Assembly (NCBI GenBank): GCA_023667395.1
Contig: JAMPAC010000007.1
Span: 28,504 to 92,503 of the forward strand
DNA: 64,000 bases
Direction of reading: 5' to 3'
From: Blautia sp.
GTDB taxonomy: Bacteria > Bacillota > Clostridia > Lachnospirales > Lachnospiraceae
Shown here: positions 45,543 to 59,705 of the stretch, in pieces
Layout: each line of letters opens with the position of its first letter
Numbering within the stretch: the stretch's first letter is position 1
Translations under genes and position numbers: made by a program
The notes under the pieces: generated by a model
The model's input: only the letters and a program-made list of their open reading frames with translations
Databases searched by the model: none
What the model was told of the DNA's origin: nothing

Positions 45543-45911
45543 TTAAATAGTTTGCGCATTGAGAATGATATCAAGCAATGCCTCATATATTTTATCATCT
45601 ACCTCAGCAATTCCCTGCCTGCCGTCAATAAACGTTAATTTCACTTTATATATTGTTTTCCTCTTAGCCGTGGATGTTCCGGCAATCATTCCAAGCCAAC
45701 CGAAGATTCCAGAAAGGATATACCCCCTGAATAACATGTTTAACAAGCTTGGTGTTTCATTTCTATCTATCTCGCTGACAGATTGCAGTGTCATTTCATT
45801 TAAACATATTTGTCTTTCCAGACACTGTAAATAAAGTCTGCCATATTTAATGGAAAACTTAAATTCTTTATATTGACCTGCTATCATTTTATTTCTCGCT
45901 TTGATAATCAT
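45543..45911 (-). CDS. Hypothetical protein with central hydrophobic segment (122 aa)
   Basis: The product begins with MIIKARNKMIAGQYKEFKFSIKYGRLYLQ, a strand-rich region common to small bacterial proteins of unknown role. It has a Gly-rich hydrophobic stretch (GYILSGIFGWLGMIAGTSTAK, about 66-86), then another strand-rich region. I use the ATG at 45911; an alternative start is 45887. It lies downstream of a clear terminator and is probably expressed separately. The family is unknown to me. Confidence 0.55.
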   Translation of the reverse strand: MIIKARNKMIAGQYKEFKFSIKYGRLYLQCLERQICLNEMTLQSVSEIDRNETPSLLNMLFRGYILSGIFGWLGMIAGTSTAKRKTIYKVKLTFIDGRQGIAEVDDKIYEALLDIILNAQTI

Positions 45912-45920
45912 CACCTCAAC

Positions 45921-45963
45921 AAAAAAGCGGGATACAGATTATTGCCACTAAATCCGATCCCGC
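45921..45963 (-). terminator. Intrinsic terminator after the 160-aa orphan gene
   Basis: On the minus strand GCGGGAT and ATCCCGC (45957-45963 and 45927-45933) pair around a 23-nt loop and are followed by six T. It should end transcription after the gene at 45989. Confidence 0.75.
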
Positions 45964-45988
45964 ATCATTCTGATCCTAAAAATGTTCC

Positions 45989-46471
45989 TTATGAAACAAT
46001 TTCATCAAACATTTCCATAACGCACTGATAGTACATCTGTTCTTCCTCAAGTTTGGCTTTATTCTTTCCTATGGTTGTAACTGCCTGGCCAATCATTGAG
46101 CCAATTTTGTAACTCATGTCTTTCCCCTGTCTATCCTGCTGATATGCTTCTGCCCTGCCTGCCTTTGCCATCTGTTTGCTGTTACCAAAGTCATTCACAG
46201 ATACATAGGCATATGTACCCTGTTTTCTTACGCGGATACAAAACTTGAAGTAATCGTTCTCGTGCTCAGGATGGTACATAACAATGCAATCGCCGACAGA
46301 GGAATTGAAAAGTCCGCCAGACTTTACCTGGTCTCCCCGGAAAGCAACCTGAATGCCCATCTTCATTGCACAATCTTTCAGCGCCTCCTGCACTGTCTGG
46401 AGAGTAATGCCTTCTCCATTCTGATAACGAACCATGTCCCTGAATTCTCTTAAATCATTCTCTTTGATCAT
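45989..46471 (-). CDS. Hypothetical protein (160 aa)
   Basis: The product starts MIKENDLREFRDMVRYQNG and contains an alpha/beta region with VAFRGDQVKSGGLFNSSVGDCIVMYHPEH, then FKFCIRVRKQGTYAYVSVNDFGNS, ending in a helix. No membrane segment or catalytic motif is seen. GGAGG lies 9 nt before ATG 46471; the longer frame to 46507 lacks one. It is between the Sel1 genes and a terminator and could be part of the cluster, but its function is unknown. Confidence 0.6.
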   Translation of the reverse strand: MIKENDLREFRDMVRYQNGEGITLQTVQEALKDCAMKMGIQVAFRGDQVKSGGLFNSSVGDCIVMYHPEHENDYFKFCIRVRKQGTYAYVSVNDFGNSKQMAKAGRAEAYQQDRQGKDMSYKIGSMIGQAVTTIGKNKAKLEEEQMYYQCVMEMFDEIVS

Positions 46472-46695
46472 TGAAATATCCTCCGTTTTTAATATTTTGA
46501 GGAACACACCTCATGAAAATTGTACATCAGCTTCAGCCTTTTTACCTTTGGTACTACATAAGTCCATTCTCCTCCTTCATAAGATTTTTATGTAAATCTG
46601 CATTCTACCCTACCTTTCCAATGACAGTATCAGCAGACTTCCCACAAATGCAATATTCATACCCGCTTTTTGCATTACTGCAAGGCTTCGCCGCC
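46472..46695. other. Intergenic gap inside the cluster
   Basis: This AT-rich 224-bp gap separates the Sel1 gene from the 160-aa orphan gene. It contains an 18-codon minus-strand frame (46511-46567) behind AAGGAGGAG, which could be a remnant or leader. I see no terminator. Confidence 0.35.
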
Positions 46696-47550
46696 TCAAT
46701 CAGGTATATAATAAGTACCATACAAACTCTTTCTATATATTTTAAGGTGCTCCTGGGCAAATTCATTCCCATTATCAGCAGCTATCTGGATATATTTATG
46801 TGCCATGTCATAATCACGGGGCACGACTTCTCCCCTCTCATAAAACCAGCCGACAATAAGATGCGCTTCCACATTGCCCTTCTCCACAGCTTTCCCTGCG
46901 TAGAAAAAAGCTTCATTTAACATATCTCCCGTTGGCCTGATACCAAAACATTCGTATGGGTCAGCGAGACATAGGGCAATTCTTAACATCGCTTCACCAT
47001 CATCAGGTTCATAATTCAAGTACTCTTTATACCATGTATATGCCGCTCCGGCATCTCTGTTTGTTCCCAATCCGTCATCATAGCAGATAGCGGCTACATG
47101 GATACCGTTCACATCCCCAAGCTTTGCTGCCCTGATGGCATAATCAAACGCCTTGGAATTATTTTCAGGCGTACCGCTTCCAAACAGATAGCACTGGGCA
47201 AGCGCTCCCATACAACTTACATCACCCAGGGCGGCGCCTTTCTCGAATATGGCAACAGCTTTGCTGCGATCCTGGCCCAGTTCCGAATTAACATTGTAGT
47301 ACTGCCTGCCCAGTTCCCACGCAGCTTCACCGCACCCCATACTGATCGCTTTTTCAAATAATTCCACGGCAAGTTCAGCATCTTTAGCGATTCCAATCCC
47401 AAACAGATAAAACTGGGCCAAAACAGCAACTGCAGCAGCATCTCCGTTGCTTTCCAATGATCTTAGTTCATCATACGCCTCATCCCAGTACCCCGCATTT
47501 ATCTGTGCAAGTATCCTGTCAGAAAGCTGCTCATAAGAACTCATTCCCAT
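46696..47550 (-). CDS. Sel1-repeat protein
   Basis: The 284-aa protein consists of Sel1-like (SLR) helical repeats of 36-38 residues, visible as AAAVAVLAQFYLFGIGIAKDAELAVELFEKAI, GCGEAAWELGRQYYN and SCMGALAQCYLFGSGTPENNSKAFDYAIRAA. Such repeats bind other proteins. No signal peptide is seen, so it is probably a cytosolic adaptor or effector-binding factor. The ATG at 47550 follows GGAGG, 12 nt after the preceding Sel1 gene, with which it shares family and operon. Confidence 0.8.
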   Translation of the reverse strand: MGMSSYEQLSDRILAQINAGYWDEAYDELRSLESNGDAAAVAVLAQFYLFGIGIAKDAELAVELFEKAISMGCGEAAWELGRQYYNVNSELGQDRSKAVAIFEKGAALGDVSCMGALAQCYLFGSGTPENNSKAFDYAIRAAKLGDVNGIHVAAICYDDGLGTNRDAGAAYTWYKEYLNYEPDDGEAMLRIALCLADPYECFGIRPTGDMLNEAFFYAGKAVEKGNVEAHLIVGWFYERGEVVPRDYDMAHKYIQIAADNGNEFAQEHLKIYRKSLYGTYYIPD

Positions 47551-47562
47551 ATGATCATCCTC

Positions 47563-48957
47563 CTACATTTTTTTCCATCCAAACAGGGTCTTTTTGAATT
47601 TGGATGCCTCGACGCCAGCCAATCCATATCCCTGCGCAGCGCTCTGCGTATATAATTGGAACGCCAACTCCAGATTTTTCGCCGTTCCGAGCCCATGCTC
47701 TGTCATATATGCGATCCAATAGATAATCTCACCTTTTCGTGGCTTATTATAATAATCGTCCTCTGCCTCAGATAACTGTTTTGCCTGTTGAAGCAATGAC
47801 ATGATCCTGTTATGATCTCCCGTGGCATCACCCTTCTTTAAGTAACAGACTGCCAGGGGCAGGAAAACCTGATCATGTTCATAATCCGCACCATCTGCCA
47901 AAACAGCTTCATAGTACTTAATTGCCTTTTGGTAATCGGTTATATTCCCATCGTTATAGTAAAAATCGGCAATATCTTTTCTGATGAATGTATTCTTTCC
48001 CGATTCCACTGACCTCTCTGCCCAGTAGATCGCTTTCGGCTTATTATGTTCATGATAGGAATAATATCTGTATAATTCATACATCGCATCTGCACTACCG
48101 TTTTCCGCCGCGGCCAGAAGATACTTATGCCCCTTTTCAGGATCTGTGATAAATTCACTGTCATAATCGACCAGCTGCTTCCCCAATTCGAGAATCGCCT
48201 CATAATTACCGGCATCTGCGGATTTTTGGAGTAATTCCTGTGCCTTATACGCATCTTTTTCAACCCCGGCGCCAACCAAATACGAAATACCAAGATCATA
48301 TTGGACATCCGCTTTGCCTTCATCCGCCATCCGGGTCATTTTATCCAGTATTTTTACATATTCCGCCTCATCCCCAAAGCATCGCGCCCTTAGCAGATAC
48401 CTCACCGCTGAGTAATTATCCTCAGCTGCAGCCTCGGACAAATATTTGTGGGCAAGCTTCTGGCTCTGTGGCAGACCGCCGTAACCGTTATCATAAAAAT
48501 ATCCCATAAAATATTTTCCGGCGGCGCTGCCTTTATCCGCAGCACGTTGAAACCATTTTGCTGCAGTCCGCTCATCATTCGGAGTAATGTCGCCAAAAGC
48601 ATATATCCAGCCAATGTCTGAAGCGGCATCCACATAGCCATGCTGCCAGGCATCTTCATATTTACTGATGGCGCTCTCATGGCTTTTAGGAACCCCGTAA
48701 CCGTAAAAATGACAGTCCGCTATCTTTTCCCAGATTGCCCCGTTATCAGGATACATGGATACAATTCTATGAAATAGCTCATATGCACGCGGCTCATCCA
48801 TTTCCACATGGACGCCCCTATAGTAACAGTCGGCCACAAATTTCATCGCTTCTTCGTTACCGGCATCCGATAACTCCATGATCACAGCCCATCCAGATGA
48901 AAAATCCGTATCCAGCTTATTTTTTGCATTTTCAAATCTTAGTGTATTCGCATCCAT
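47563..48957 (-). CDS. Large Sel1-repeat protein
   Basis: The 464-aa protein is built of about ten Sel1-like repeats (for example AMKFVADCYYRGVHVEMDEPRAYELFHRIV, AASDIGWIYAFGDITPNDERTAAKWFQRAA, ADVQYDLGISYLVGAGVEKDAYKAQELLQKSA). It is soluble, without a signal peptide. Its ATG shares a base with the stop of the previous gene (TGATG), so it is translationally coupled. Sel1 proteins often assemble complexes or act as immunity or adaptor proteins next to effectors; here that is inference from location. Confidence 0.8.
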   Translation of the reverse strand: MDANTLRFENAKNKLDTDFSSGWAVIMELSDAGNEEAMKFVADCYYRGVHVEMDEPRAYELFHRIVSMYPDNGAIWEKIADCHFYGYGVPKSHESAISKYEDAWQHGYVDAASDIGWIYAFGDITPNDERTAAKWFQRAADKGSAAGKYFMGYFYDNGYGGLPQSQKLAHKYLSEAAAEDNYSAVRYLLRARCFGDEAEYVKILDKMTRMADEGKADVQYDLGISYLVGAGVEKDAYKAQELLQKSADAGNYEAILELGKQLVDYDSEFITDPEKGHKYLLAAAENGSADAMYELYRYYSYHEHNKPKAIYWAERSVESGKNTFIRKDIADFYYNDGNITDYQKAIKYYEAVLADGADYEHDQVFLPLAVCYLKKGDATGDHNRIMSLLQQAKQLSEAEDDYYNKPRKGEIIYWIAYMTEHGLGTAKNLELAFQLYTQSAAQGYGLAGVEASKFKKTLFGWKKM

Positions 48958-49454
48958 CAGCCGCCATTTCCTTTCATGTGGTCCAGTTCTTTAACCATGC
49001 TCTCCCTTTCAGCGATCAGCTTGCTCCTTTTTGAAAATCCCACTGCAATCATTATTCCTGTGAATATTGCCGGAACGAGCAAAAAGAAGAGTCCCATCAG
49101 GGCAAGCACACACAGTACAACGGTCGCAATGATCCACTGTTTGGGAAATGCATTCCTTATTCTTCCATCGATCATCTGTATATCATATTCCTTTTCCTTG
49201 ATTGCCTGGGAACCGACTACCGTATTGGCTGCTCCCGGCGTTGATCCCACAGACGAACCGATATTATGATTTCTTCCCTCTAACGGTGAAGCAGGCGGCG
49301 CATTATATCCGCCGCGATGTATCGGCGCCGCGCTTCCGCCAACACTGGTTGAAACAATCGTTCCGTCATCCCCTATAACGGTTCTGTTATCGGATGAAAC
49401 CACCTGGTCATCTTTTAATATGGTTCCGTCAGGTCCAATCCGTACATTAGACAT
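48957..49454 (-). CDS. Small membrane protein with N-terminal repeat motif
   Basis: The 165-aa product has two strand-like N-terminal copies of a Gly-Pro/Asp-Asp-Gly-Thr-Ile motif (RIGPDGTILKDD and VIGDDGTIVSTS), a Gly/Pro/Ser linker, then two hydrophobic helices (about 108-145) and a charged helical tail. This looks like a membrane-bound, cytosol-facing protein. ATG at 49454 follows GGAGGG and overlaps the previous gene by 8 nt. Its role in the cluster is unknown. Confidence 0.65.
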   Translation of the reverse strand: MSNVRIGPDGTILKDDQVVSSDNRTVIGDDGTIVSTSVGGSAAPIHRGGYNAPPASPLEGRNHNIGSSVGSTPGAANTVVGSQAIKEKEYDIQMIDGRIRNAFPKQWIIATVVLCVLALMGLFFLLVPAIFTGIMIAVGFSKRSKLIAERESMVKELDHMKGNGG

Positions 49455-49950
49455 CAATAATCCCTCCCTCTGCCTGGGCCAGTCTGCGCAGATCTTTCGT
49501 CAAAACAAAATAAAATTCCCACAGAGACCCATCCACATATTTTTCCAAAAGGCTTAAATAGTCAGCCACACATTTACTGTTGCATTCCTGGTATTTGCCT
49601 GTCAGTAAATTCTGCCTCAGCAATTCATACGCGGCTGCATAGTCGTCATAATAGATGGCACTTTCCTCATCCCAGTCTTCCGGTCTGACTATGTCGTCTG
49701 CAGACTTTTCAAAATGAAAGCTTTCTGCATCAGCCTTAAACGCTACTTGCCTGTTTTCGAAATCAATCCCAAATACGGAAACAGGGCCGGAATATTGTTT
49801 TTCCTCATAGTTTATTGAATATGTAAAGAAAACATCCACCCATCTGCCCTTTACTGACATCAAAACAGGTTCTGAGTAGCACATACCATCCTTTATGACG
49901 TCATATAGGTCGAACGTAGTGACCAAAGCGTTTACTTCCTCAAGTTTCAT
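49447..49950 (-). CDS. Candidate immunity/partner of the peptidase-like protein
   Basis: The 167-aa acidic protein begins MKLEEVNALVTTFDLYDVIK and mixes beta strands (GRWVDVFFTYSINYE) with helices. It has no membrane segment and no motif I know. It starts at ATG 49950 after AGAGGGG, 11 nt downstream of the peptidase-like gene and upstream of the Sel1 proteins. A small acidic gene right behind a putative toxin is the usual place for an immunity protein, hence this inference; a chaperone for secretion is equally possible. Confidence 0.5.
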   Translation of the reverse strand: MKLEEVNALVTTFDLYDVIKDGMCYSEPVLMSVKGRWVDVFFTYSINYEEKQYSGPVSVFGIDFENRQVAFKADAESFHFEKSADDIVRPEDWDEESAIYYDDYAAAYELLRQNLLTGKYQECNSKCVADYLSLLEKYVDGSLWEFYFVLTKDLRRLAQAEGGIIDV

Positions 49951-49961
49951 ATCATTCCCCT

Positions 49962-51266
49962 CTACCTGATGATCTGGTACGTCACATTCATTGGCGCTCC
50001 GGTTAAAGATCCGATCAAAACATCTGACGGATAATACTGCGTGCCCCCGATACCGGTATCGCATACGTAAAAACCCGCTATGTTGCCCTGCGCATCTTTT
50101 TCAACGCTTGTAACTGTAATTGCATGGAAGTCATTCTTCGAATTCTTTTTTCCATGCCACAGGGCATATGCATGCACTGAGATAATCACGCCCCTGCCTT
50201 CAGACACATATTGCGCAATTGCCGCCGCATTATCTGATGACACCATTCCCCTTGCGTCCCTTTTCATTTCAAAGATACCGCTGTCTATACCAAAATGATC
50301 CAAGATTGCTTTTCTGTCAGCAGGACTTGTCGCCCCGTTAGACGCCGGGTTGAGATGCCCTGTCTCACACAGTCTATTCACGGAACCCGGTGCGTTTGTT
50401 TTGGATGCATAATCAATTATATTGCCTTCTTTTACATCCACACCGGATAATCGAATCACATTTGCACACGAGCACAAACCGCACGTCCCTTTAAATCCCA
50501 TTCTTGCATATCCCTGCTTGGGACATAATGCCCCGCCTGTCTCGATTGGCGAATCATAGACCATGTTTCCGTTGTCTGATTTGGTGAATCCATATTGTGT
50601 AACCGGCAGATCCCTTGGCGATCTCCGGTTGGGCGTAAAAAGATTCTGTCCCGGTTCCCCGGTACTGTTATCAGTATTTAACCCATCTACCTTATCTTTT
50701 TTTTGAACGCTTTCATTATCTACATCATCTGATAACCGGACCGCACTATAATCCCCCAATGTTTCCAACCACTTATCAAGTGTCAGGACACAGGCCTCAA
50801 TATTGAATCCATTATTCCCGGCGGAACCACTTGTGTGCAAAAGTGATATAACATATTCGCCATAATCATCTAATTGATTACGGGTTCTGCCTAACTCTTC
50901 TTTACGTTGTTCCAAAACATCCCGTTTTCTGCGATTCTCCTGAACCTTGGCATTGTCATAGACCCTGCGGGCCACCCCGTCGCAGCCTGCCTCCCTGCAA
51001 TGGGTTTCATCGCCCGGAATCTTCAGCATTATTCTTCCACCGCATTTCTGGCAGCAAAATGAATCCGTCCTTCCATCCGCATCGGAATCTTGTGCCATGG
51101 AGTCCATTTCTGAATCCAGCTTCACCATATGATCTGAAATCTGATCGCTTATCTGCCCAAAACTTCTCTGAAAATTACTTTGGGCAGTTGACATTTGCTC
51201 TCCCAATTTTATTACGGCTTCGCGAATTTCATATAATGCCTCGGCATCAGTATGTACTTTCGCCAT
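49962..51266 (-). CDS. Putative effector: helical N-terminus, zinc ribbon, C39/papain-like peptidase domain
   Basis: The 434-aa protein has three parts. Residues 1-60 form a helical region similar in length to WXG/LXG-type targeting domains (EALYEIREAVIKLGEQ). Residues 70-96 hold a zinc ribbon (Cys71/72/75 and Cys90/95). From about 225 there is a papain/C39-like fold: KGTCGLCSCANVIRLSG (catalytic Cys262 or 265), NDFHAITVTSV (His381) and FYVCDTGIGG (Asp403), the order expected for a cysteine peptidase or papain-fold toxin. It follows the WXG100 gene directly and precedes a small acidic gene, which fits a secreted effector. It could instead process proteins inside the cell, for example modifier conjugates. 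Confidence 0.65.
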   Translation of the reverse strand: MAKVHTDAEALYEIREAVIKLGEQMSTAQSNFQRSFGQISDQISDHMVKLDSEMDSMAQDSDADGRTDSFCCQKCGGRIMLKIPGDETHCREAGCDGVARRVYDNAKVQENRRKRDVLEQRKEELGRTRNQLDDYGEYVISLLHTSGSAGNNGFNIEACVLTLDKWLETLGDYSAVRLSDDVDNESVQKKDKVDGLNTDNSTGEPGQNLFTPNRRSPRDLPVTQYGFTKSDNGNMVYDSPIETGGALCPKQGYARMGFKGTCGLCSCANVIRLSGVDVKEGNIIDYASKTNAPGSVNRLCETGHLNPASNGATSPADRKAILDHFGIDSGIFEMKRDARGMVSSDNAAAIAQYVSEGRGVIISVHAYALWHGKKNSKNDFHAITVTSVEKDAQGNIAGFYVCDTGIGGTQYYPSDVLIGSLTGAPMNVTYQIIR

Positions 51267-51275
51267 GATCTACTC

Positions 51276-51554
51276 CTAACTCATATGTTGAGATAAATAA
51301 TCTTCCATGATTGACTTCAATTGTTGGATCTTAGTGATGCTTGATGACAGCGTTGCATAGCTTCCTTTTATCGCTGTTGTCGCCTGGGAAATGACATCGC
51401 CTAATTCCTCGTATTTTTTGTCATCCCACTCATCGCCCACATTCTGGTAATTGGACTGCAGAGTCTCCACCACGCTGTCCTGGACCTCAATAAACCTAGT
51501 TATCGTCTGAATCATTTTGTCCATTGCTTCTGGATTTGCGCCGCTTTTTGCCAT
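51276..51554 (-). CDS. WXG100-family protein
   Basis: The 92-aa helical hairpin protein fits the WXG100 (ESAT-6-like) family by size and pattern. Two long helices surround a turn DEWDDKKYEELG, where Trp43-Asp-Asp replaces the Trp-x-Gly motif. Most relatives are type VII secretion substrates or chaperones. AGGAGG lies 9 nt before the ATG. It lies 18 nt after the FtsK-like ATPase gene and 9 nt before the peptidase-like gene, the standard neighbours of a type VII substrate. Confidence 0.85.
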   Translation of the reverse strand: MAKSGANPEAMDKMIQTITRFIEVQDSVVETLQSNYQNVGDEWDDKKYEELGDVISQATTAIKGSYATLSSSITKIQQLKSIMEDYLSQHMS

Positions 51555-51572: not shown

Positions 51573-54500
51573 TCACATTTTAGATACATATTCTTTTATT
51601 CCTGCAAACGGCTTGAACTGGTATGCAGGATTGATCCCATCATAAAAAATAACTATGTTGTTTCTTAAATTCTCCGTTTTGGCTTCCGGGATGACCCTGC
51701 CTGCATCCGCATTGTTCAGAGAGAATACAATGCGATTTCCAAATTTCGGAACCACTCCATACATATATTCCTTGATCGAAATAAAATCCGGGCTGCTTAG
51801 GACAACATTTATGCCATAGGTATATCCGCTTTCTATCAGGGTCAGTAATTTTGAATTGTAAGATACATTTTTATTGGCCTTTCTTTCTTGTTTTTCCTGT
51901 TTCATATCCGTAAGGAAAGAATCCATCAAAGATAACGTTGCAGAAGTAGAATCGTTCAAAAAGCCAAACGGATCCGATTTGTCAACCTTTTTTTCCGCCT
52001 CTTTGCTGACAACAAATTCACTTACGCTCTTATTCTGGAGTATAAGGTTGATCGATTCTATCCATTGGATATTGTTAATGATCATATGAACGGCATGGTA
52101 TTTCTTTCTGTTACCGGAAAGCCTTGCAGATCGACGTTCTTCGTAAATCGCATAAAGATCATCGATGCAGCTTATGATGTCTTCATTGGTATCAGCCGCT
52201 TTTATATCCTGCCTGCAGGCATGGACCACACTGCCAATACAGTCTGAGTAATTCTCGCCAATAATGTGTAAACCGTCAAACAGATATACGGATTCTTCAC
52301 GGACACCTAATGATTTGGCAGGCCGGGTTTTTACTGAACCGATCATATATAATGATACCAATTGGTCTATCATTCTCTGCTCGCTCCCTACGATAAGCAG
52401 ATTGCTTCTTTTTGTCCTGCTTACATTAAGCTTGACCGGACTCGCTATTCGTATAGGTTCACCAAAAAGAATCGAGACCGTTGAGTAGGCTTCCTCGGGG
52501 TCAACCTCATAAAACTCCTTGCAATCACGTATATCCGGGATGGAGTTACCTGCAAAGATCTTTGTTTTTTCCCTTGGCTCCAACAGGCTGAAATGTGCTT
52601 CAATTTCTGAAAGCAGTTCCTCCTGTGTGGCTTCATCACAGTAAGCAACCTTAAATCCGACAGGCTTTCCCTGTACATAATCTTCACAATAAACAGCCGA
52701 ACCCTTTTCGGTACCCATCTTTCCAAAAGCCGTTCTTCCGTTTTTTTCCCCAAAAAGAAGATTGCATTCGCTTTCCGTACACTTCAATCCGATTCGCACA
52801 TACATTTCATTCAGTGTGGATTTCCGGATGGAAAAACCGCTTGAAAGCCGACTCAACGTCTGTGTTGCCAGCAGGAAATGCATTCCGTATACACGTGCCA
52901 GGGAAATAAAATCCGCCAATTTCCCACCGCAATACGCCGCAATTTTCCTGTTATCTTCCTCACTGAACAGGATTTGGAATTCATCGGCAACCACAAGTAT
53001 CCTTGGAAGTTTTTTCCCGGTCAGCCTCCTGTAGTCCTCAATATCTTTCACATTGAGCCCCTGGGAAATGAGTTCGTTAAATAAATTGCTTCTGCGATTC
53101 ATCTCCGCCCACAAATTATCCAAGATACTCTGCCCGAATTCCTGCATTGCGTCAAGAGCCAGGAGTTTTATATGCGGGATCTGCTTTTCCGCATATACCT
53201 TGAATTCTGTTCCGCTCTTGAAATCCATCAAATACAGATTAAGTTCATCCGGACTGAATGTCGTCAGCGCACTCATAATGATAGTGTGCAATAGCGTTGA
53301 TTTACCCGAGCCCGTAGATCCTATGACAAGCGCATAATGGGATGTTCCCTGCCCGAATATCAATTCCTGCAGATTGCCATCCTCATTTTTCCCGATAGGG
53401 ATTGCCAGCTTTTCAGCGGAACTTGCCTCAAACCAATTCTCCCTGGGAATGATCTTTTTAATCGGCAGACTGGTATTTGTAATCTCCTTATACTGTTCAG
53501 CAAATAATTCCTCAAAATCCCTCAGGAAAGATCTGTCCGGCAAGGGTCGCAAGTTCAATGTAACCCCATTATAGAATTTCCACTGACCAAATACATTTTC
53601 CAGCTGAATACATTCCGTGACAATTCTTGAAATACTTTCTATTAAGGAATCACTTCGCCTTTCCCCAAGCACATCCTCATTAAAATGGACAAGCACCTGT
53701 ACTCCGTATTCCGATCCGTTTCGGACAATGTTATATAAGCAGTCCAGCATCTCCTCATCAAAATACTTGGGGAAATCCAATAAGCACAGGCATTTCAGGG
53801 ATTCTTGCTTATCAACAACTTCAGCGTTATATTCAAATATGTCATGATACCCCACAAACTTTGTCTGCCCGATCTCGTCAACATACCGGCTTAATTCCCG
53901 CAGGGAATCCTTTATATTGTCTTTGGTTGTCAGCACCTTGTCCCCCATCACATCCGGATGCTGCCTAAGGAAGTCCAGGTATGCGTCAAACCCCCTCGAA
54001 CGGCCTTCCGGATCCGATAAGATAAATTTCTGTCTGGATGCAGGCTGATTTTTCAGAAGTGAAAACATAATCGAATGTATCGCTTCTTTTGCCGGCGTAG
54101 AATATCCTCTGCTGGAAAAGCAAAAGTTCATTCCTTGGGCAATTTCAAACAGTGCGGGCAACACTAAATTTGTACCGCTAATATGCCCTGCAAAATATGG
54201 ATTAATATAATCAAGGACATTTTCATACTGCCTGATCCCAGACAGATCCAGGCTTAATTCACCTATATAAATCTGTTCGCAGCACTCTTCCGGCAATATA
54301 TTATTATCGCCTAAAAGCCCCGCCAATTCCGTTATTACGCTCACATCGCCACTTGACAGCACGCTTTCCAAAGACGCATTGACCCTGTAAATAAGATTCG
54401 ATATATCTTCTTGTTCACGTTCTTCTATCATTTGGAGTATTTCCGCAGTCTCAGCCGCCGCTCTGTCTATCTCGGCTTCTTTCTTTGCACTCCAATTTGA

Positions 54501-55067
54501 CCTGACATTGGAATCGCTGAGCGATAGTTTTTCCTCCGCCAGTTTTTTCAGCTTTTTTGACTCGGCAAGAAGCAGGAACAAGCGCTCATACATATCCCTG
54601 CGTTTACTTGAGAAAAGCATTCCTATCTCTTGCAAGGCCTGGGCTTTAACAGTCAGTGAACATTCCCTTGCAATGCTGATTGCCTCGTCGTGAATCTCCT
54701 TTAGCTTTGAGTAATAATCATCTACAGAGTCATGATCGAACAAGTCCTCCGACGACAGCAGGGCGAACTCTCCGTTCCTTCGCTTTTCATAACTTTTATC
54801 AACTCTGCACAGCTGCTCTTCCAAACTTTCCAGACCGGATATCATTTCCTGCATCTTTTGCTTTTTTTCATTCGAAAGTCCGCATGTGGCGCTGATAGCC
54901 TGGCTTTCTTTTTCACTCCAAATGCGCCGGCTTTCTGTAAAAGCTTCATCAGCCTCCCGCCTCATGCCATCATAAGAAGCCTGAATACCTGCAATTTCCA
55001 GGTTCATATCATTGAAAATCGAATTAAGTTTTGCCATGCTCTCATATAATCGATTTATGTTCAGCAA
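51573..55067 (-). CDS. FtsK/SpoIIIE-type ATPase with N-terminal coiled coil, no membrane anchor
   Basis: The 1164-aa protein has a long N-terminal coiled coil (1-235), a degenerate ATPase-like region (about 300-520, without Walker A) and one canonical FtsK domain. The last has Walker A GSTGSGKS at 583-590 and Walker B RILVVADEF at 689-697, with an Arg-finger segment RIGLKCTE near 755. A second degenerate domain forms the C-terminus (about 870-1164). Type VII EssC/EccC ATPases also chain several such domains, but they have FHA domains and two membrane helices, both absent here. A TTG at 55067 behind GAGGGGG is the best start. In the operon it precedes the WXG100 gene, so it probably moves WXG-type or related proteins. 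Confidence 0.85.
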   Translation of the reverse strand: MLNINRLYESMAKLNSIFNDMNLEIAGIQASYDGMRREADEAFTESRRIWSEKESQAISATCGLSNEKKQKMQEMISGLESLEEQLCRVDKSYEKRRNGEFALLSSEDLFDHDSVDDYYSKLKEIHDEAISIARECSLTVKAQALQEIGMLFSSKRRDMYERLFLLLAESKKLKKLAEEKLSLSDSNVRSNWSAKKEAEIDRAAAETAEILQMIEEREQEDISNLIYRVNASLESVLSSGDVSVITELAGLLGDNNILPEECCEQIYIGELSLDLSGIRQYENVLDYINPYFAGHISGTNLVLPALFEIAQGMNFCFSSRGYSTPAKEAIHSIMFSLLKNQPASRQKFILSDPEGRSRGFDAYLDFLRQHPDVMGDKVLTTKDNIKDSLRELSRYVDEIGQTKFVGYHDIFEYNAEVVDKQESLKCLCLLDFPKYFDEEMLDCLYNIVRNGSEYGVQVLVHFNEDVLGERRSDSLIESISRIVTECIQLENVFGQWKFYNGVTLNLRPLPDRSFLRDFEELFAEQYKEITNTSLPIKKIIPRENWFEASSAEKLAIPIGKNEDGNLQELIFGQGTSHYALVIGSTGSGKSTLLHTIIMSALTTFSPDELNLYLMDFKSGTEFKVYAEKQIPHIKLLALDAMQEFGQSILDNLWAEMNRRSNLFNELISQGLNVKDIEDYRRLTGKKLPRILVVADEFQILFSEEDNRKIAAYCGGKLADFISLARVYGMHFLLATQTLSRLSSGFSIRKSTLNEMYVRIGLKCTESECNLLFGEKNGRTAFGKMGTEKGSAVYCEDYVQGKPVGFKVAYCDEATQEELLSEIEAHFSLLEPREKTKIFAGNSIPDIRDCKEFYEVDPEEAYSTVSILFGEPIRIASPVKLNVSRTKRSNLLIVGSEQRMIDQLVSLYMIGSVKTRPAKSLGVREESVYLFDGLHIIGENYSDCIGSVVHACRQDIKAADTNEDIISCIDDLYAIYEERRSARLSGNRKKYHAVHMIINNIQWIESINLILQNKSVSEFVVSKEAEKKVDKSDPFGFLNDSTSATLSLMDSFLTDMKQEKQERKANKNVSYNSKLLTLIESGYTYGINVVLSSPDFISIKEYMYGVVPKFGNRIVFSLNNADAGRVIPEAKTENLRNNIVIFYDGINPAYQFKPFAGIKEYVSKM

Positions 55068-55732: not shown

Positions 55733-56857
55733 CTAGCCTTCATATTCGCATGGCGGGCAATTACATCCATGGGAAACCTCCAATGAGGTTGTAACCTGTA
55801 ATGGATAACTGAAAATCTCAGCCATATCCCCGCCAACCTCCGTTTTATTTGTATTGCATACCAGCGTATATTGCTTCAGCGAGTCCAATACTCTTGGCGT
55901 AAATTTGTCATTTCCCATATTCAAAATATCTAAAATCAGTTTTATCCCAACTGTTGTCACAAAGTTAATATCAATCGATATGCCAGGCTCAAAATTAACT
56001 TTTTCCAAATCTTCTTCATTCGTATAGATTCTTCTGTTTGTAGATACCCTGTTTGAAAATTCTCCTCCATCTCCCAAGGCGCATTTATAACAGGGCATGT
56101 TACGATTCGGCAGATAGTAGAAGATTTCGCCGGCAAACGCCCTTTCCCAAAAGCCGACGCTTATAAAAGGAATCTTATACATTACGGCAATGCTGTTCGC
56201 ATACACATCTGCGGCCCTGTTATCGGCGCAGCCAATGATAATGCTTTTTTCTTCCATGCAATGTTCATCGAAAATTTCCTTCGGGGCAGTTTCCACTGTC
56301 CCTATCCACACGGCGACGTCAGCCGCCGGATTAACGGCCAGTATTCTCTCTTTCAAAGCGTTGACTTTGTACTTTCCAACATCATATATATTGCACTGGT
56401 GCCTGCATAAATTGTGATACTCCACAACATCATTATCCATAAGCAAAAAATTTCCCACACCCGCCCTGCATAGTTCAAGCGCGACAAGGCTGCCCACGGA
56501 ACCGCAGCCCAATATTACGGCAGTCTTCTCTATCATGATGGCAGACTCTAATATTCCCGTGTTTCTTGAAAATATATTTTGCATCAGGCTGTAGACTTCT
56601 ACCTGATATTCTTCTTTGCCCTTTCTGAATTTTAATTGATCGCCAGCCCAGTAACCACATAACTGATCGTCATTTCCGTCAGCGGATTCCCTGATATAAC
56701 CTATGGGCGTACCGCCCAGGTTTTCCCTCATCGCATCGTCATATATATTCGCAATGCCGGAATCTTCAACGTAATTTCCATAGATTTCACCTGTATATCC
56801 GGATGTTATCATACTTTCCGGCACTAATACCTTATTATGTCTTCTTCGCATCCCCAT
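55733..56857 (-). CDS. E1/ThiF-like adenylating enzyme
   Basis: The 374-aa protein has an N-terminal domain of about 105 residues and then a ThiF/E1 Rossmann domain. ILGCGSVGSLVALELCRAGVG (112-132) binds ATP, LLMDNDVVEYHNLCRHQ supplies the conserved Asp and Arg/Asn residues, and VGCADNRAA-type residues follow. Two Cys pairs (CYKC near 258 and CNCPPC at 365-370) should hold a zinc. No isolated catalytic Cys is obvious. Such enzymes activate the C-terminus of a ubiquitin-like protein. The neighbours encode E2-like and JAMM proteins, so it belongs to a conjugation module. Start ATG 56857 follows GAGGTG. Confidence 0.85.
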   Translation of the reverse strand: MGMRRRHNKVLVPESMITSGYTGEIYGNYVEDSGIANIYDDAMRENLGGTPIGYIRESADGNDDQLCGYWAGDQLKFRKGKEEYQVEVYSLMQNIFSRNTGILESAIMIEKTAVILGCGSVGSLVALELCRAGVGNFLLMDNDVVEYHNLCRHQCNIYDVGKYKVNALKERILAVNPAADVAVWIGTVETAPKEIFDEHCMEEKSIIIGCADNRAADVYANSIAVMYKIPFISVGFWERAFAGEIFYYLPNRNMPCYKCALGDGGEFSNRVSTNRRIYTNEEDLEKVNFEPGISIDINFVTTVGIKLILDILNMGNDKFTPRVLDSLKQYTLVCNTNKTEVGGDMAEIFSYPLQVTTSLEVSHGCNCPPCEYEG

Positions 56858-56864
56858 CAGGCAA

Positions 56865-57779
56865 TCACCTCTTCACATAACTGCTTAATACCTTTGAAAA
56901 CAAGCCTTTAGAGTACTTATAAGTCAATTCATTGTATGTAAAAACAATCTTATCCCTGTCTTCACCAAAGGCTACACACCAGGGTATTTTTCCTTTATCA
57001 TTTCCATATAAATGCAGCAGACCGTCTTCTGCTATTTCAAGGTTATAACTGATTTTCTTTTTTTCAAAGGCCTCCAGGTCTTCAGCCAGACAATCAAGAA
57101 TTTTCTCGACAGGCAATTCTCCAATATGATTTTGGGGATCGTAACTGCGGATATCCGCCATTGTCCTCTTCCTTAAATATTCGTGTAATGCCTTTCCAAA
57201 AAATATGTCAGGATCTTTTGGGGCGAATGATTCAAAAAAGGACTTCTTACGGGCATCCTGACCATTGTTTTGATCTGCTAACTGCCTTTTCAAGTCATTG
57301 ATTGACTTGAGTTCCATTACTTCTTCCAAGGTTTTATTATCAGCAACCGAATACTCAACCTTGGTATATTTCAAAGGTAATGTAACATGATATACTGTCA
57401 GCCTGAACTCCGGATCAATATTTACCAATGCCGAAATAGCGCCGTTTTTTGATAACTCTGCATACTTGGCATTTGTCCCGTCATCCGTATTTGAAAATCT
57501 GTCCAGCGATCCAGGATGCCTGTGCCATAAACCGACCAGATCCAGCTGTTTCTTATATATGCGGGATAACTTATTTATCAAATGATTGATATAGTCCACG
57601 TCATATTCAAAATAGGTGGGTGTAAATATTGAATTGGGACCAGGATCAACAGCCTCTACCACGTAACAGACATCATCTTTAAATTCACCCAAAAACACGC
57701 CTCCGGTTTCAGTTGTTATTTTTTCTTTTGTTTCGACAAGCAATGAAGTCATAGCTCGATCGCTAAAAACAACTTTCAT
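56865..57779 (-). CDS. JAMM/JAB-family isopeptidase-like protein
   Basis: The 304-aa protein has a complete JAMM motif: Glu24 in TTETGGVFLGE, His86-x-His88 in GLWHRHPGSLDRFSNTDD, Ser96 and Asp99, the zinc site of deubiquitinase-type JAB peptidases. After the JAB domain (1-140) comes a domain of about 165 residues rich in helix and strand (RSYDPQNHIGELPVEKILDCL) that I do not recognise. JAB proteins in bacterial conjugation operons process or remove a ubiquitin-like modifier. It lies between E2-like and E1-like genes, 7-11 nt apart. Confidence 0.88.
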   Translation of the reverse strand: MKVVFSDRAMTSLLVETKEKITTETGGVFLGEFKDDVCYVVEAVDPGPNSIFTPTYFEYDVDYINHLINKLSRIYKKQLDLVGLWHRHPGSLDRFSNTDDGTNAKYAELSKNGAISALVNIDPEFRLTVYHVTLPLKYTKVEYSVADNKTLEEVMELKSINDLKRQLADQNNGQDARKKSFFESFAPKDPDIFFGKALHEYLRKRTMADIRSYDPQNHIGELPVEKILDCLAEDLEAFEKKKISYNLEIAEDGLLHLYGNDKGKIPWCVAFGEDRDKIVFTYNELTYKYSKGLFSKVLSSYVKR

Positions 57780-57790
57780 CGGCCATCCCC

Positions 57791-58255
57791 CTAATATGTA
57801 TGCTCAAATACTTCGTCACCTATTTCACCCGCCAGCCATCCTTCCACTGCAAAAATCCATTTGGCCGCCCATCCCAAGGCCTTTGCTGCAGATGTAGTCC
57901 GATTCCCGGAATCAATATCTTCTTTTCTTGCAGTGCACATATAGAGATCGCCATTGGAATCCTTAAGCACATGCGGCAAAGTTCCTGCCGCCCGATATAA
58001 TTCATTCAAATCCGGCTGGACAGAATATACCCTCAATGACCCGCCATAAGTATTATTATGCGGATGGTTATGATCATACACAACCATGAGGGTCCATGTA
58101 CCTCCATCAGCCCCTCTTGGATTCAGTGTTCCAACCCAGCATATCCTTCCGTCTTCCAGCTTATCCAAAACAAAATTAGGAAAATACGTCTGCATAGCCA
58201 GTTTTTCACTGTTAAATAATTCCGGATCCCTTTCGTACCAATAAAATCCTGCCAT
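57791..58255 (-). CDS. E2-like (UBC-fold) conjugating enzyme
   Basis: The 154-aa product matches prokaryotic E2 proteins: strands RICWVGTLNPRG and TWTLMVVYDHNHPHN, then LPHVLKDSNGDLYMCTARKED with the candidate catalytic Cys107. The C-terminal AKALGWAAKWIFAVEGWLAG corresponds to the A-x-x-x-x-x-W-L...E-W helix typical of bacterial E2s. It should carry a modifier thioester from the E1-like enzyme to a target. It lies 11 nt before the JAMM gene. No ubiquitin-like gene is found beside it, which leaves the modifier in question. Confidence 0.78.
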   Translation of the reverse strand: MAGFYWYERDPELFNSEKLAMQTYFPNFVLDKLEDGRICWVGTLNPRGADGGTWTLMVVYDHNHPHNNTYGGSLRVYSVQPDLNELYRAAGTLPHVLKDSNGDLYMCTARKEDIDSGNRTTSAAKALGWAAKWIFAVEGWLAGEIGDEVFEHTY

Positions 58256-58275: not shown

Positions 58276-58473
58276 TCATGCCAATTTACCCTCTGGGGCC
58301 TTAAGTGTTTTTCCGGCTTCTGCCAGGGGATCATTAGGAGCAACTACCTGTCCTGAAGGAGTCACACTAACTGCCTCACCCCTTTTTAAGCGTTCCGCCA
58401 ACTCTTTTCTTTTCTGCGCTGCAGCATCATCACTGCCAAAAATACCCACAGGAACTGCCATAGTTCTTCCCAT
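58276..58473 (-). CDS. 65-aa first gene of the conjugation operon
   Basis: The product begins MGRTMAVPVGIFGSDDAAAQ, has a charged middle helix (KRKELAERLKRGEAVSV) and a loose C-terminus ending EGKLA. ATG 58473 is preceded by AAAGGAGGT; the longer frame from 58509 has AAGG touching the start. It does not show a beta-grasp fold and lacks a C-terminal Gly-Gly, so I cannot call it the modifier. As first gene it is a candidate substrate, modifier precursor or regulator. Confidence 0.6.
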   Translation of the reverse strand: MGRTMAVPVGIFGSDDAAAQKRKELAERLKRGEAVSVTPSGQVVAPNDPLAEAGKTLKAPEGKLA

Positions 58474-58537: not shown

Positions 58538-58573
58538 AAAAAAATGTTTCGTAGAATTTGCTATTCTACGAAA
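58538..58573 (-). terminator. Recombination site 1 doubling as a hairpin terminator
   Basis: Read on the minus strand, TTTCGTAGAAT and ATTCTACGAAA pair perfectly over 11 bp around an AGCAA loop and are followed after 2 nt by seven T (58544 down to 58538). It lies right at the integrase stop codon and before the operon start. In the present orientation it should stop integrase transcripts from entering the operon. Confidence 0.55.
58547..58573. repeat. Recombination-type site 1 (inverted relative to site 2)
   Basis: Arms TTTCGTAGAAT and ATTCTACGAAA flank core TTGCT, the shape of a tyrosine-recombinase core site (inverted 11-bp arms around a short spacer). It overlaps the stop codon of the recombinase gene. 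Confidence 0.75.
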
Positions 58574-59535
58574 AGCGTCTGATATTTTTTGTCAAGCAAT
58601 CCCATTTGTTTCTTCTTTTGTGATAAGGAACTGTGCACATATTTGTTTAACGTAAAATTCACACTGGAATGTCCAAGCAATTCACTTAAGGTTTTAATGT
58701 CAAACCCGAGTTCAACGCAATTGGTTGCGAACGTGTGCCTTAATGAATGGAAATTACGATCTTCAAGCTTACATTTTTTCAATACTGCTTTGAACGCATA
58801 CTGTAATGTCCTCGGTTCATAAGGAATGAAAGAACCTGTTAAAACATAGTTTTCCGGTTTTATATCCGGTACGTTCATTTCTTTCATATAGTCCAGAACG
58901 ATATATGGCAATGGAACATATCGCTTGGACTTTTTGCTTTTGGGCGGATTGGACATGAGTCGCGTACCTGTTTCCATTTGTAATCTTTGCGCTGTTTCAC
59001 AAATATGTATTATCTTTCTTTCAAAATCTATATGTTCCCGCTTCAGGGCACATATTTCCCCGATTCGCATTCCCGTAGTTAATGATAGCAGTATTCCCAG
59101 ATTGTTTTTATTCACTATTCTGGTCAGTTCATGTAGGATTTGCTTTTCTTCACATGGGGTAAGAACTTCGCACTCCCTTTCTTCGGAATCTCTAAATTCA
59201 AACACGATATCTAAATTAAGATTATATGAATGTCTCGTGCCGTATTTAATGATGGCTCTGATTAAATATAAAATCGACTTCATGGTACTCTTTGAATATT
59301 GAACTTCATTTTTCTGGGAAATAATGATCAAGCCCTGTTCAAACCGGAAAGCACTGAATTCATTTGCCCTCAGGCTGCCAAATTCCGGCAGAATGATATT
59401 TGACAGAAGATTCCGATACTTTATGTAGGTGGACGATTTTACTGCTGATTTTTTTTGAGCCAGCCATTCGTTAGCAATGTATTCAAATGTATGTCCCAAT
59501 TCCTGTGATTCATGGTTTTCTGTACCTCTTTTCAT
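58561..59535 (-). CDS. Tyrosine recombinase inside an invertible segment
   Basis: The 324-aa product is a complete tyrosine recombinase: N-terminal core-binding domain (FEYIANEWLAQKKSAVKSST), catalytic Arg in TTGMRIGEICALKREH, Lys-bearing hairpin, HSLRHTFATN (His, Arg), GHSSVNFTLNKYVH (His and nucleophile Tyr). ATG 59535 follows TAGGAGG. It lies alone between two inverted recombination-type sites and carries no sign of a phage or conjugative element around it. This is the layout of a self-inverting switch; it probably acts on those two sites. After inversion the stop codon is unchanged, because the core and inner arm stay the same. Confidence 0.9.
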   Translation of the reverse strand: MKRGTENHESQELGHTFEYIANEWLAQKKSAVKSSTYIKYRNLLSNIILPEFGSLRANEFSAFRFEQGLIIISQKNEVQYSKSTMKSILYLIRAIIKYGTRHSYNLNLDIVFEFRDSEERECEVLTPCEEKQILHELTRIVNKNNLGILLSLTTGMRIGEICALKREHIDFERKIIHICETAQRLQMETGTRLMSNPPKSKKSKRYVPLPYIVLDYMKEMNVPDIKPENYVLTGSFIPYEPRTLQYAFKAVLKKCKLEDRNFHSLRHTFATNCVELGFDIKTLSELLGHSSVNFTLNKYVHSSLSQKKKQMGLLDKKYQTLFVE

Positions 59536-59583
59536 GATTACCTCCTAAAATTTGCACAATAACCAGTCAAAAAAGAAAAAATA

Positions 59584-59612
59584 TTGACAAATGATTGGTC
59601 AGATATTAAAAT
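59584..59612 (+). promoter_or_regulatory. Strong promoter inside the invertible segment, pointing away from the operon
   Basis: TTGACA (59584-59589) and TAAAAT (59607-59612) are exactly 17 bp apart, the best housekeeping promoter in the region. Its start near 59619 lies in the inner arm of site 2. In this orientation it reads right, into the hairpin at 59671; after inversion it would read left into the operon at 58473. Confidence 0.8.
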
Positions 59613-59639
59613 TATCGTTGAATAGCAAATTCTACGAAA
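59613..59639. repeat. Recombination-type site 2
   Basis: Arms TATCGTTGAAT and ATTCTACGAAA flank core AGCAA, the reverse complement of the site 1 core. The outer 20 bp (59620-59639) are an exact inverted copy of 58547-58566. The inner arm matches the consensus arm at 9 of 11 positions. Confidence 0.75.
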
Positions 59640-59660
59640 TAATTGTAGACAGAATATTCT

Positions 59661-59705
59661 TCCAAAAATAAGACCGCCGCTATGGTTCCCCATATACGGC
59701 GGTCT
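59661..59705 (-). terminator. Terminator of the DUF1538/P-II-like operon
   Basis: AGACCGCCG and CGGCGGTCT (59671-59679 and 59697-59705) with an inner CTATGG/CCATA stem form a strong hairpin, followed on the minus strand by TATTTTT. It insulates the invertible segment from upstream transcripts and may also stop the outward promoter. Confidence 0.8.

Follow-up and report, generated by a model that had tools for sequence, protein, structure and literature searches.

A predicted self-contained promoter inversion cassette, probably assembled in the OFF arrangement, beside a ubiquitin-like/type-VII-like gene cluster of Blautia sp.

Invertons are a known kind of genetic switch, and the cassette described here is a variation on that kind. 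The fim switch comprises a promoter between short inverted sites, a tyrosine recombinase and an adjacent operon that is turned ON or OFF, with the recombinases FimB and FimE being encoded outside the segment; invertases of the Hin/Gin type are serine recombinases. The Hin recombinase is encoded inside its own invertible segment, and a fimbrial invertible segment of Providencia stuartii (844 bp) encloses a recombinase ORF as well (PMC5903667). In the case of C. difficile cwpV, an orientation-dependent hairpin followed by poly-U was proposed as a terminator of the OFF state, the published genome being OFF and ∼5% of cells ON (PMC2784873). Clostridial inverton group 139 (invertase group 35) has a tyrosine-type recombinase within 5 kb, and its orientation changes were measured in reads (PMC11892184).

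The locus analysed here lies in a 64,000-nt stretch of Blautia sp. DNA (the window), and all coordinates are positions in that stretch. It resembles fim in having a promoter between short inverted sites, a tyrosine recombinase and an adjacent operon with predicted ON and OFF states, but its recombinase gene is located inside the segment, with the stop codon in the site. A recombinase gene within its own segment is shared with Hin/Gin, from which the window protein differs in being a tyrosine recombinase (PF00589). The P. stuartii element likewise holds its recombinase ORF inside a putative invertible segment; it is, however, an isolated example from the Gammaproteobacteria, located ahead of fimbriae and bounded by imperfect repeats of 14 bp (PMC5903667). 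The hairpin and poly-U terminator idea and the OFF state of the published genome are common to cwpV, although the promoter there is outside a 195-bp segment holding neither the promoter nor the ORF of cwpV, whereas the window promoter itself would flip (PMC2784873). Group 139, too, represents clostridial invertons linked to a tyrosine-type recombinase, yet the two examples quoted have slightly more than 200 bp between the repeats, whereas window-type elements measure 1.08-1.76 kb and hold the recombinase (PMC11892184). Among titles and abstract starts of mainly open-access literature, neither a description of this family in papers on tyrosine-recombinase invertons nor a paper on this target, type VII secretion with phase variation, was found, an absence that is weak evidence. 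A limit on segment size in common inverton callers could explain why segments longer than 1 kb are missed.

According to the earlier note, a complete tyrosine recombinase gene lies here between two inverted sites composed of 11-bp arms and a central 5-bp core, and this arrangement was borne out (Table 1). The top inverted match between the two 400-nt regions scored 23.0, as against 13.0 for the best of 100 shuffles; the inverted sites at this locus are far above chance. A repeat search returned the pair as 58542-58574 / 59612-59644 (33 nt, 88% complementary). The core of the operon-side site (TTGCT, 58558-58562) and that of the distal site (AGCAA, 59624-59628) are reverse complements, and the cores and outer arms of both sites are exact inverted copies, the numbers given earlier being confirmed; the inner arm of the distal site has mismatches at 2 of 11 positions. 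The TAG stop codon of the recombinase spans the arm/core border of the operon-side site and would survive a flip, the core and outer arm there being matched exactly in inverted form at the other site. Paired inverted recombination sites thus flank the segment in the window, as they do in invertons. An integrated mobile element with end repeats was rejected as an explanation, because the end sites of such an element are in direct orientation, whereas here they are inverted with inverted cores.

Table 1. Coordinates of the features of the locus, given as positions in the window.
Feature	Position	Strand	Details
Operon-side recombination site	58547-58573		11-bp arm, 5-bp core, 11-bp arm; perfect palindrome
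Distal recombination site	59613-59639		11-5-11, 27 bp; inverted relative to the operon-side site
Tyrosine recombinase	58561-59535	-	324 aa; whole gene inside the segment; PF00589, E=1.3e-27
Sigma-70-type promoter motif TTGACA-17-TAAAAT	59584-59612	+	-35 at 59584-59589, -10 at 59607-59612
Stable hairpin outside the distal site	59671-59705		- strand reading followed by TTATTTTT; + strand reading without T run
First operon gene	58276-58473	-	65 aa from ATG at 58473
E2-like (ubiquitin-conjugating) protein	57791-58255	-	154 aa; PADLOC E2, E=5.5e-13
JAB-domain protein	56865-57779	-	304 aa; PF14464
E1-like (ThiF) protein	55733-56857	-	374 aa; PF00899
FtsK/SpoIIIE ATPase, EccC/EssC-like	51573-55067	-	1164 aa; TIGR03924 E=3.2e-32, TIGR03928 E=1.7e-28, both under the cut-offs
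WXG100-like protein	51276-51554	-	92 aa; weak, under the cut-off
Remaining cluster	45543-51266	-	434-aa protein, small proteins, two Sel1-repeat proteins

The window recombinase matches PF00589 (Phage_integrase) with 97.1 bits, well above the cut-off of 27.1, and R157, H263-x-x-R266, H289 and Y299, which we take to be the catalytic residues, are all present. No arm-binding N-terminal domain was found among its Pfam matches, and the fim-type DNA invertase models of NCBIfam, PRK09870 and PRK09871, remained below their cut-offs (23.3 bits versus 221 and 16.4 versus 222, respectively). The Pfam domains are those of integrases and the closest PDB sequence match is an integrase as well (Int protein 6en0/6emy/6emz), as would suit an integrase gene that has binding sites of its own for autoregulation or integration; recombination between the inverted sites would then not occur, and there would be no switch. 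This explanation seems very improbable, given that both the sites and their cores have inverted orientation, the arrangement seen in most of the family and not the direct one at the ends of an integrated element, and that opposite orientations exist beside homologous flanks (see below); we infer instead that the recombinase acts on the two sites. The placing of the recombinase inside its own switch, as proposed earlier, holds insofar as the whole gene is in the segment, but it is not unusual here, because the same is common in this recombinase family. Within the genus of the window genome, the best other match to the recombinase is 41% identical, and no second copy of the locus was found for a comparison of orientation.

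The promoter motif, which matches 11 of the 12 consensus bases, was confirmed directly inside the distal site, facing outward and away from the operon. If the segment is turned around between the cores, the end of the -10 element would lie beside the operon-side site and the predicted start would be at ∼58567, 94 nt ahead of the ATG at 58473, in agreement with the distance of ∼94 nt that had been claimed; this ATG is preceded by AAGGAGG. The predicted promoter is thus internal to the segment and would face the target in one orientation only, and with the motif pointing away from the operon the assembly would represent the OFF arrangement, as was also proposed.

Judging from these sequence features and the family comparisons below, the locus is probably a self-contained promoter inversion cassette, assembled OFF and predicted to flip. 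The recombinase would recombine the two inverted 27-bp sites and flip the ∼1.06-kb segment between the cores, its own gene being located inside and remaining intact in either orientation. In the assembled state the predicted strong promoter faces away from the operon (OFF), while after a flip it would read into the E2/JAB/E1/FtsK operon (ON) from a start inside the operon-side site, ∼94 nt before the start codon. The OFF state would be the default, with flips being rare or conditional.

In the direction of the operon, an 11-bp hairpin of -11.4 kcal/mol can form from the operon-side site, with CA and seven U (seven T in the DNA) behind it, and the operon-side site of the inverted state would fold at -5.3 kcal/mol; the ON transcript, beginning within the site, would be without the 5' arm. 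The site may thus act as a terminator which, in the OFF state, ends recombinase transcripts ahead of the operon and blocks read-through, a hypothesis that is local to the window since the corresponding site in G273, a genome with a related element (see below), is by eye an imperfect palindrome. That a terminator follows the recombinase in every element was not borne out: of the 55 elements covered by a strict scan without shuffle control (six of the 61 were left out), 19 had a terminator-like structure behind the recombinase, and the site of the window was not flagged. It could also be supposed that the assembled orientation is ON by read-through from the recombinase gene, inversion then turning the operon off or uncoupling it. 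The recombinase and its target are indeed co-directional here and in 37 of the 42 non-redundant elements with a 3'-side gene call, and no terminator was found after the recombinase in 36 of the 55 elements scanned. However, the operon-side site presents a hairpin and seven T in precisely that direction, terminator-like structures occur there in 19 of the 55 relatives, and a near-consensus outward promoter is kept at the other end, so that this alternative appears improbable beside the reading of an OFF assembly. The hairpin beyond the distal site offers no obvious intrinsic terminator to the promoter in its assembled OFF direction, as the T-rich tail is found only in the - strand reading; in that reading, the hairpin is terminator-like for the P-II gene which runs toward it.

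The operon beside the switch had been taken for a conjugation/type-VII-like one. Conjugation was rejected, as neither a relaxase nor mating-pair proteins were found among the operon proteins scanned. The type-VII-like label was retained as a likeness. The FtsK ATPase has EccCa (112 bits against a cut-off of 509) and EssC (99 bits against 778) as its best NCBIfam matches and one FtsK stretch in Pfam, the WXG100-like match is weak and under its cut-off (19.9 versus 27.3 bits), and the cluster does not qualify as a full T7SSb. Pfam and NCBIfam scans of operon proteins (nine in the case of NCBIfam) gave no match to EssB/YukC, EsaA or EsaB/YukD. In addition, E1, E2 and JAB genes are present together, as in bacterial ubiquitin-like conjugation operons; no beta-grasp modifier was identified for them, and a sequence search returned no solved structure for the E2-like protein. 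Judged by these matches, the operon is a ubiquitin-like/type-VII-like cluster. The product of the first operon gene carries a C-terminal P-x-GKLA tail conserved in all three aligned sequences (its own and those of two relatives).

The E2-JAB-E1-FtsK gene order was also found in three further genomes (G026, G201 and G453), and no recombinase of the window type is present in the stretches examined from them. Of 41 genus genomes, G750 is the closest as judged by the DUF1538 protein next to the block (92%). There, the ∼45.5-59.7 kb block is not at this place, and by eye a polysaccharide deacetylase is located between the same neighbours instead. Since G750 has these neighbours without the block, the switch and the operon occur together as one block in the window.

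A protein search of 397 genomes of the bacterial family (E 1e-70) revealed one relative of the window recombinase outside its own genome, namely in G273. This protein, 42% identical, is encoded between inverted sites with a TTTCGTAGAA arm, and TTGACA-17-TAAAAT is located just inside the distal site in the outward direction, which is the same layout as that of the window. The element adjoins a cluster of FHA, radical SAM, ClpB-type AAA, PP2C and Ser/Thr kinase genes. Relatives of the operon FtsK (E 1e-60) occur in five genomes including its own, G273 among them, where the FtsK relative and the recombinase share a strand and are ∼15 kb apart. At the level of the order, a search with both recombinases (E 1e-50) gave 109 places in 63 of 392 genomes, and stretches were examined for 80 of these, together with loci from other searches. 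An inverted pair flanks 65 of the 95 recombinase matches (none at the other 30), as against 0 of 63 shuffled flanks; the arm motif TCG(T/C)A is present in 45 of 61 site pairs, and the elements measure 1.08-1.76 kb, recombinase included. Plasmids of Ruminococcus albus 7 and Vescimonas fastidiosa are among the named records with flanking pairs. A later search of the genus added inverted pairs at five of six new loci, three of the five having a promoter of at least 10/12. Among loci in viral contigs, the inverted pair was found in two of nine, with both flanks long enough in five of the nine; a protein search of viral contigs with the window recombinase returned no relative, and the exact site pattern was likewise absent from them. 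L010 (Faecalicatena) was rejected as a relative, its recombinase showing no TTTCG-arm inverted sites.

The promoter count was made on 61 elements, i.e. the 65 paired ones after exclusion of L085, L088 and L133, whose repeats are very long, and of L113, in which the frame continues; the promoter controls further omitted L051 and L107, leaving 59. An outward promoter of at least 10/12 was found at the 5' end of the recombinase in 55 of the 61 elements and at the other end in two, whereas the controls gave 7/61 for the opposite strand of the region and 7% for shuffles. After clustering, the corresponding numbers were 40 and two of 46 non-redundant elements. Flank genes, taken by a crude method as the closest ORF (minimum 120 aa) no more than 1 kb away, were sought for 45 of the 46 clusters, one representative being L051, and were called in 42 on the 3' side and in 40 on the other. 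The gene beside the 3' end of the recombinase reads away from the element in 37 non-redundant cases and toward it in five (sign test, p = 2e-7), while the direction on the other flank is even (21 versus 19). The probable target is thus nearly always on the side opposite to the promoter direction, and most assembled copies look OFF.

The targets, as assigned by eye, comprise adhesin-like proteins, chemotaxis receptors, a peptide-synthetase-like protein, capsule genes, glycosyltransferases and XRE regulators. Eleven loci (L104, L105, L107, L124, L121, L122, L115, L112, L125, L131 and L106) precede genes of methyl-accepting chemotaxis receptors (by eye), and clostridial inversion signatures near chemotaxis genes have been reported, in line with such targets (PMC5903667). 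The window genome itself harbours at least two further recombinase-in-segment elements, L092 (G000:C177) and L100 (G000:C121), both of which precede a CpsB-like PHP phosphatase gene (by eye). On the right flank of L057 and L058, an Erm-like rRNA methylase gene (by eye) is found ∼450 nt past the 3' side, after a short ORF, and L067, L071, L072 and L077 are each followed by another tyrosine recombinase gene that points the same way. Much longer inverted repeats (scores >130) flank the recombinase genes of L085, L088 and L133, which are perhaps gene-altering rather than promoter switches.

Stretches of E. raffinosus plasmids (L146-L150) also contain related recombinases between inverted pairs, perfect over 25-26 bp in four and weaker in L150; no inverted pair was found at E. 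gilvus L151, where the next gene encodes a WxL-domain protein. At 10/12, a promoter is present at both ends in L146, L147 and L150 and at neither end in L148 and L149. With the one-sided promoter rule of the main family failing there, no OFF state can be assigned to the E. raffinosus copies.

Two sets of homologous loci indicate that segments of the window recombinase family have flipped. In one genome, L111 and L130 share a 3.7-kb flank at 93.5% identity and their recombinase segments are opposite; these segments are 73% identical and represent paralogues, not alleles. In the second set, the viral contigs L136 and L137, identical over 8.4 kb, have in common with L057 a flank that extends as far as the site (80% over 554 nt), and the recombinase segment is reversed; L138 has the arrangement of L057, on weaker matches. 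By eye, the left site of L136/L137 is lost, and hence they do not demonstrate a working switch. Inverted matches between the flanks of MCP genes were not counted as inversions, their source being paralogous receptor genes. Seven orthologous groups, meanwhile, keep one orientation, and at three loci of the E. raffinosus plasmids the orientation agrees in 4/4, 3/3 and 2/2 segment-covering records. The invertible promoter switch of the earlier note is thus supported in part, by the family-wide sites, promoter and target side, the G273 layout and the opposite orientations elsewhere, but the fixed orientations speak against frequent flipping. We conclude from these comparisons that one orientation is probably the default and that flipping is rare, conditional, biased or, in many loci, lost.

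Contig ends near the sites lend weak support only to inversion: they fall within 40 nt of sites in two of 41 elements, as against 0.29 expected, and for one of the two, L034, the contig size was set to 10,000. In G692, contigs C12 and C16 (L114, L115, L107) have ends at the inverted sites of two elements; one contig begins right at a site, and an overlap of 1,730 nt between two contigs was found at a further element, which could reflect reads of mixed orientation in the assembly.

One may ask whether the cassette of the window is a locked relic, which once flipped and is now fixed OFF, the operon being silent or served by another promoter. The two mismatches in the inner arm of the distal site would agree with this, as would the predominance of one orientation among the assembled relatives and the existence, in L136/L137, of a locus with one site lost. 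Such a fate is nevertheless unlikely for a locus whose recombinase ORF is intact with its catalytic residues, whose cores and outer arms are exact inverted copies and whose promoter retains 11 of 12 consensus bases. We retain the reading of a cassette that is still predicted to flip, with transcription of the operon ensuing.

As to the broader population of these elements, we put forward, as a proposal on which our own judgement is evenly balanced, that they constitute widespread and so far unnamed autonomous promoter cassettes of Clostridia-like bacteria, OFF by default, each consisting of a recombinase, an outward near-consensus promoter and TTTCG-arm sites within 1.08-1.76 kb and placed before very different targets, with the site in the window doubling as an orientation-dependent terminator. 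These targets range from the ubiquitin-like/T7SS-like operon and the kinase/FHA/ClpB cluster to chemotaxis receptors, adhesins, capsule and peptide-synthetase-like genes. Because the cassette recurs in relatives, a testable rule follows: wherever TTTCG-arm inverted sites enclose a member of this recombinase family, the gene on the 3' side of the recombinase would be marked as default-OFF and phase-variable, and the rule extends to genes of unknown role. If the proposed switch is real, the ubiquitin-like/type-VII-like cluster of this Blautia would be phase variable; it could seem silent in culture and would be deployed by only some cells of a clone.
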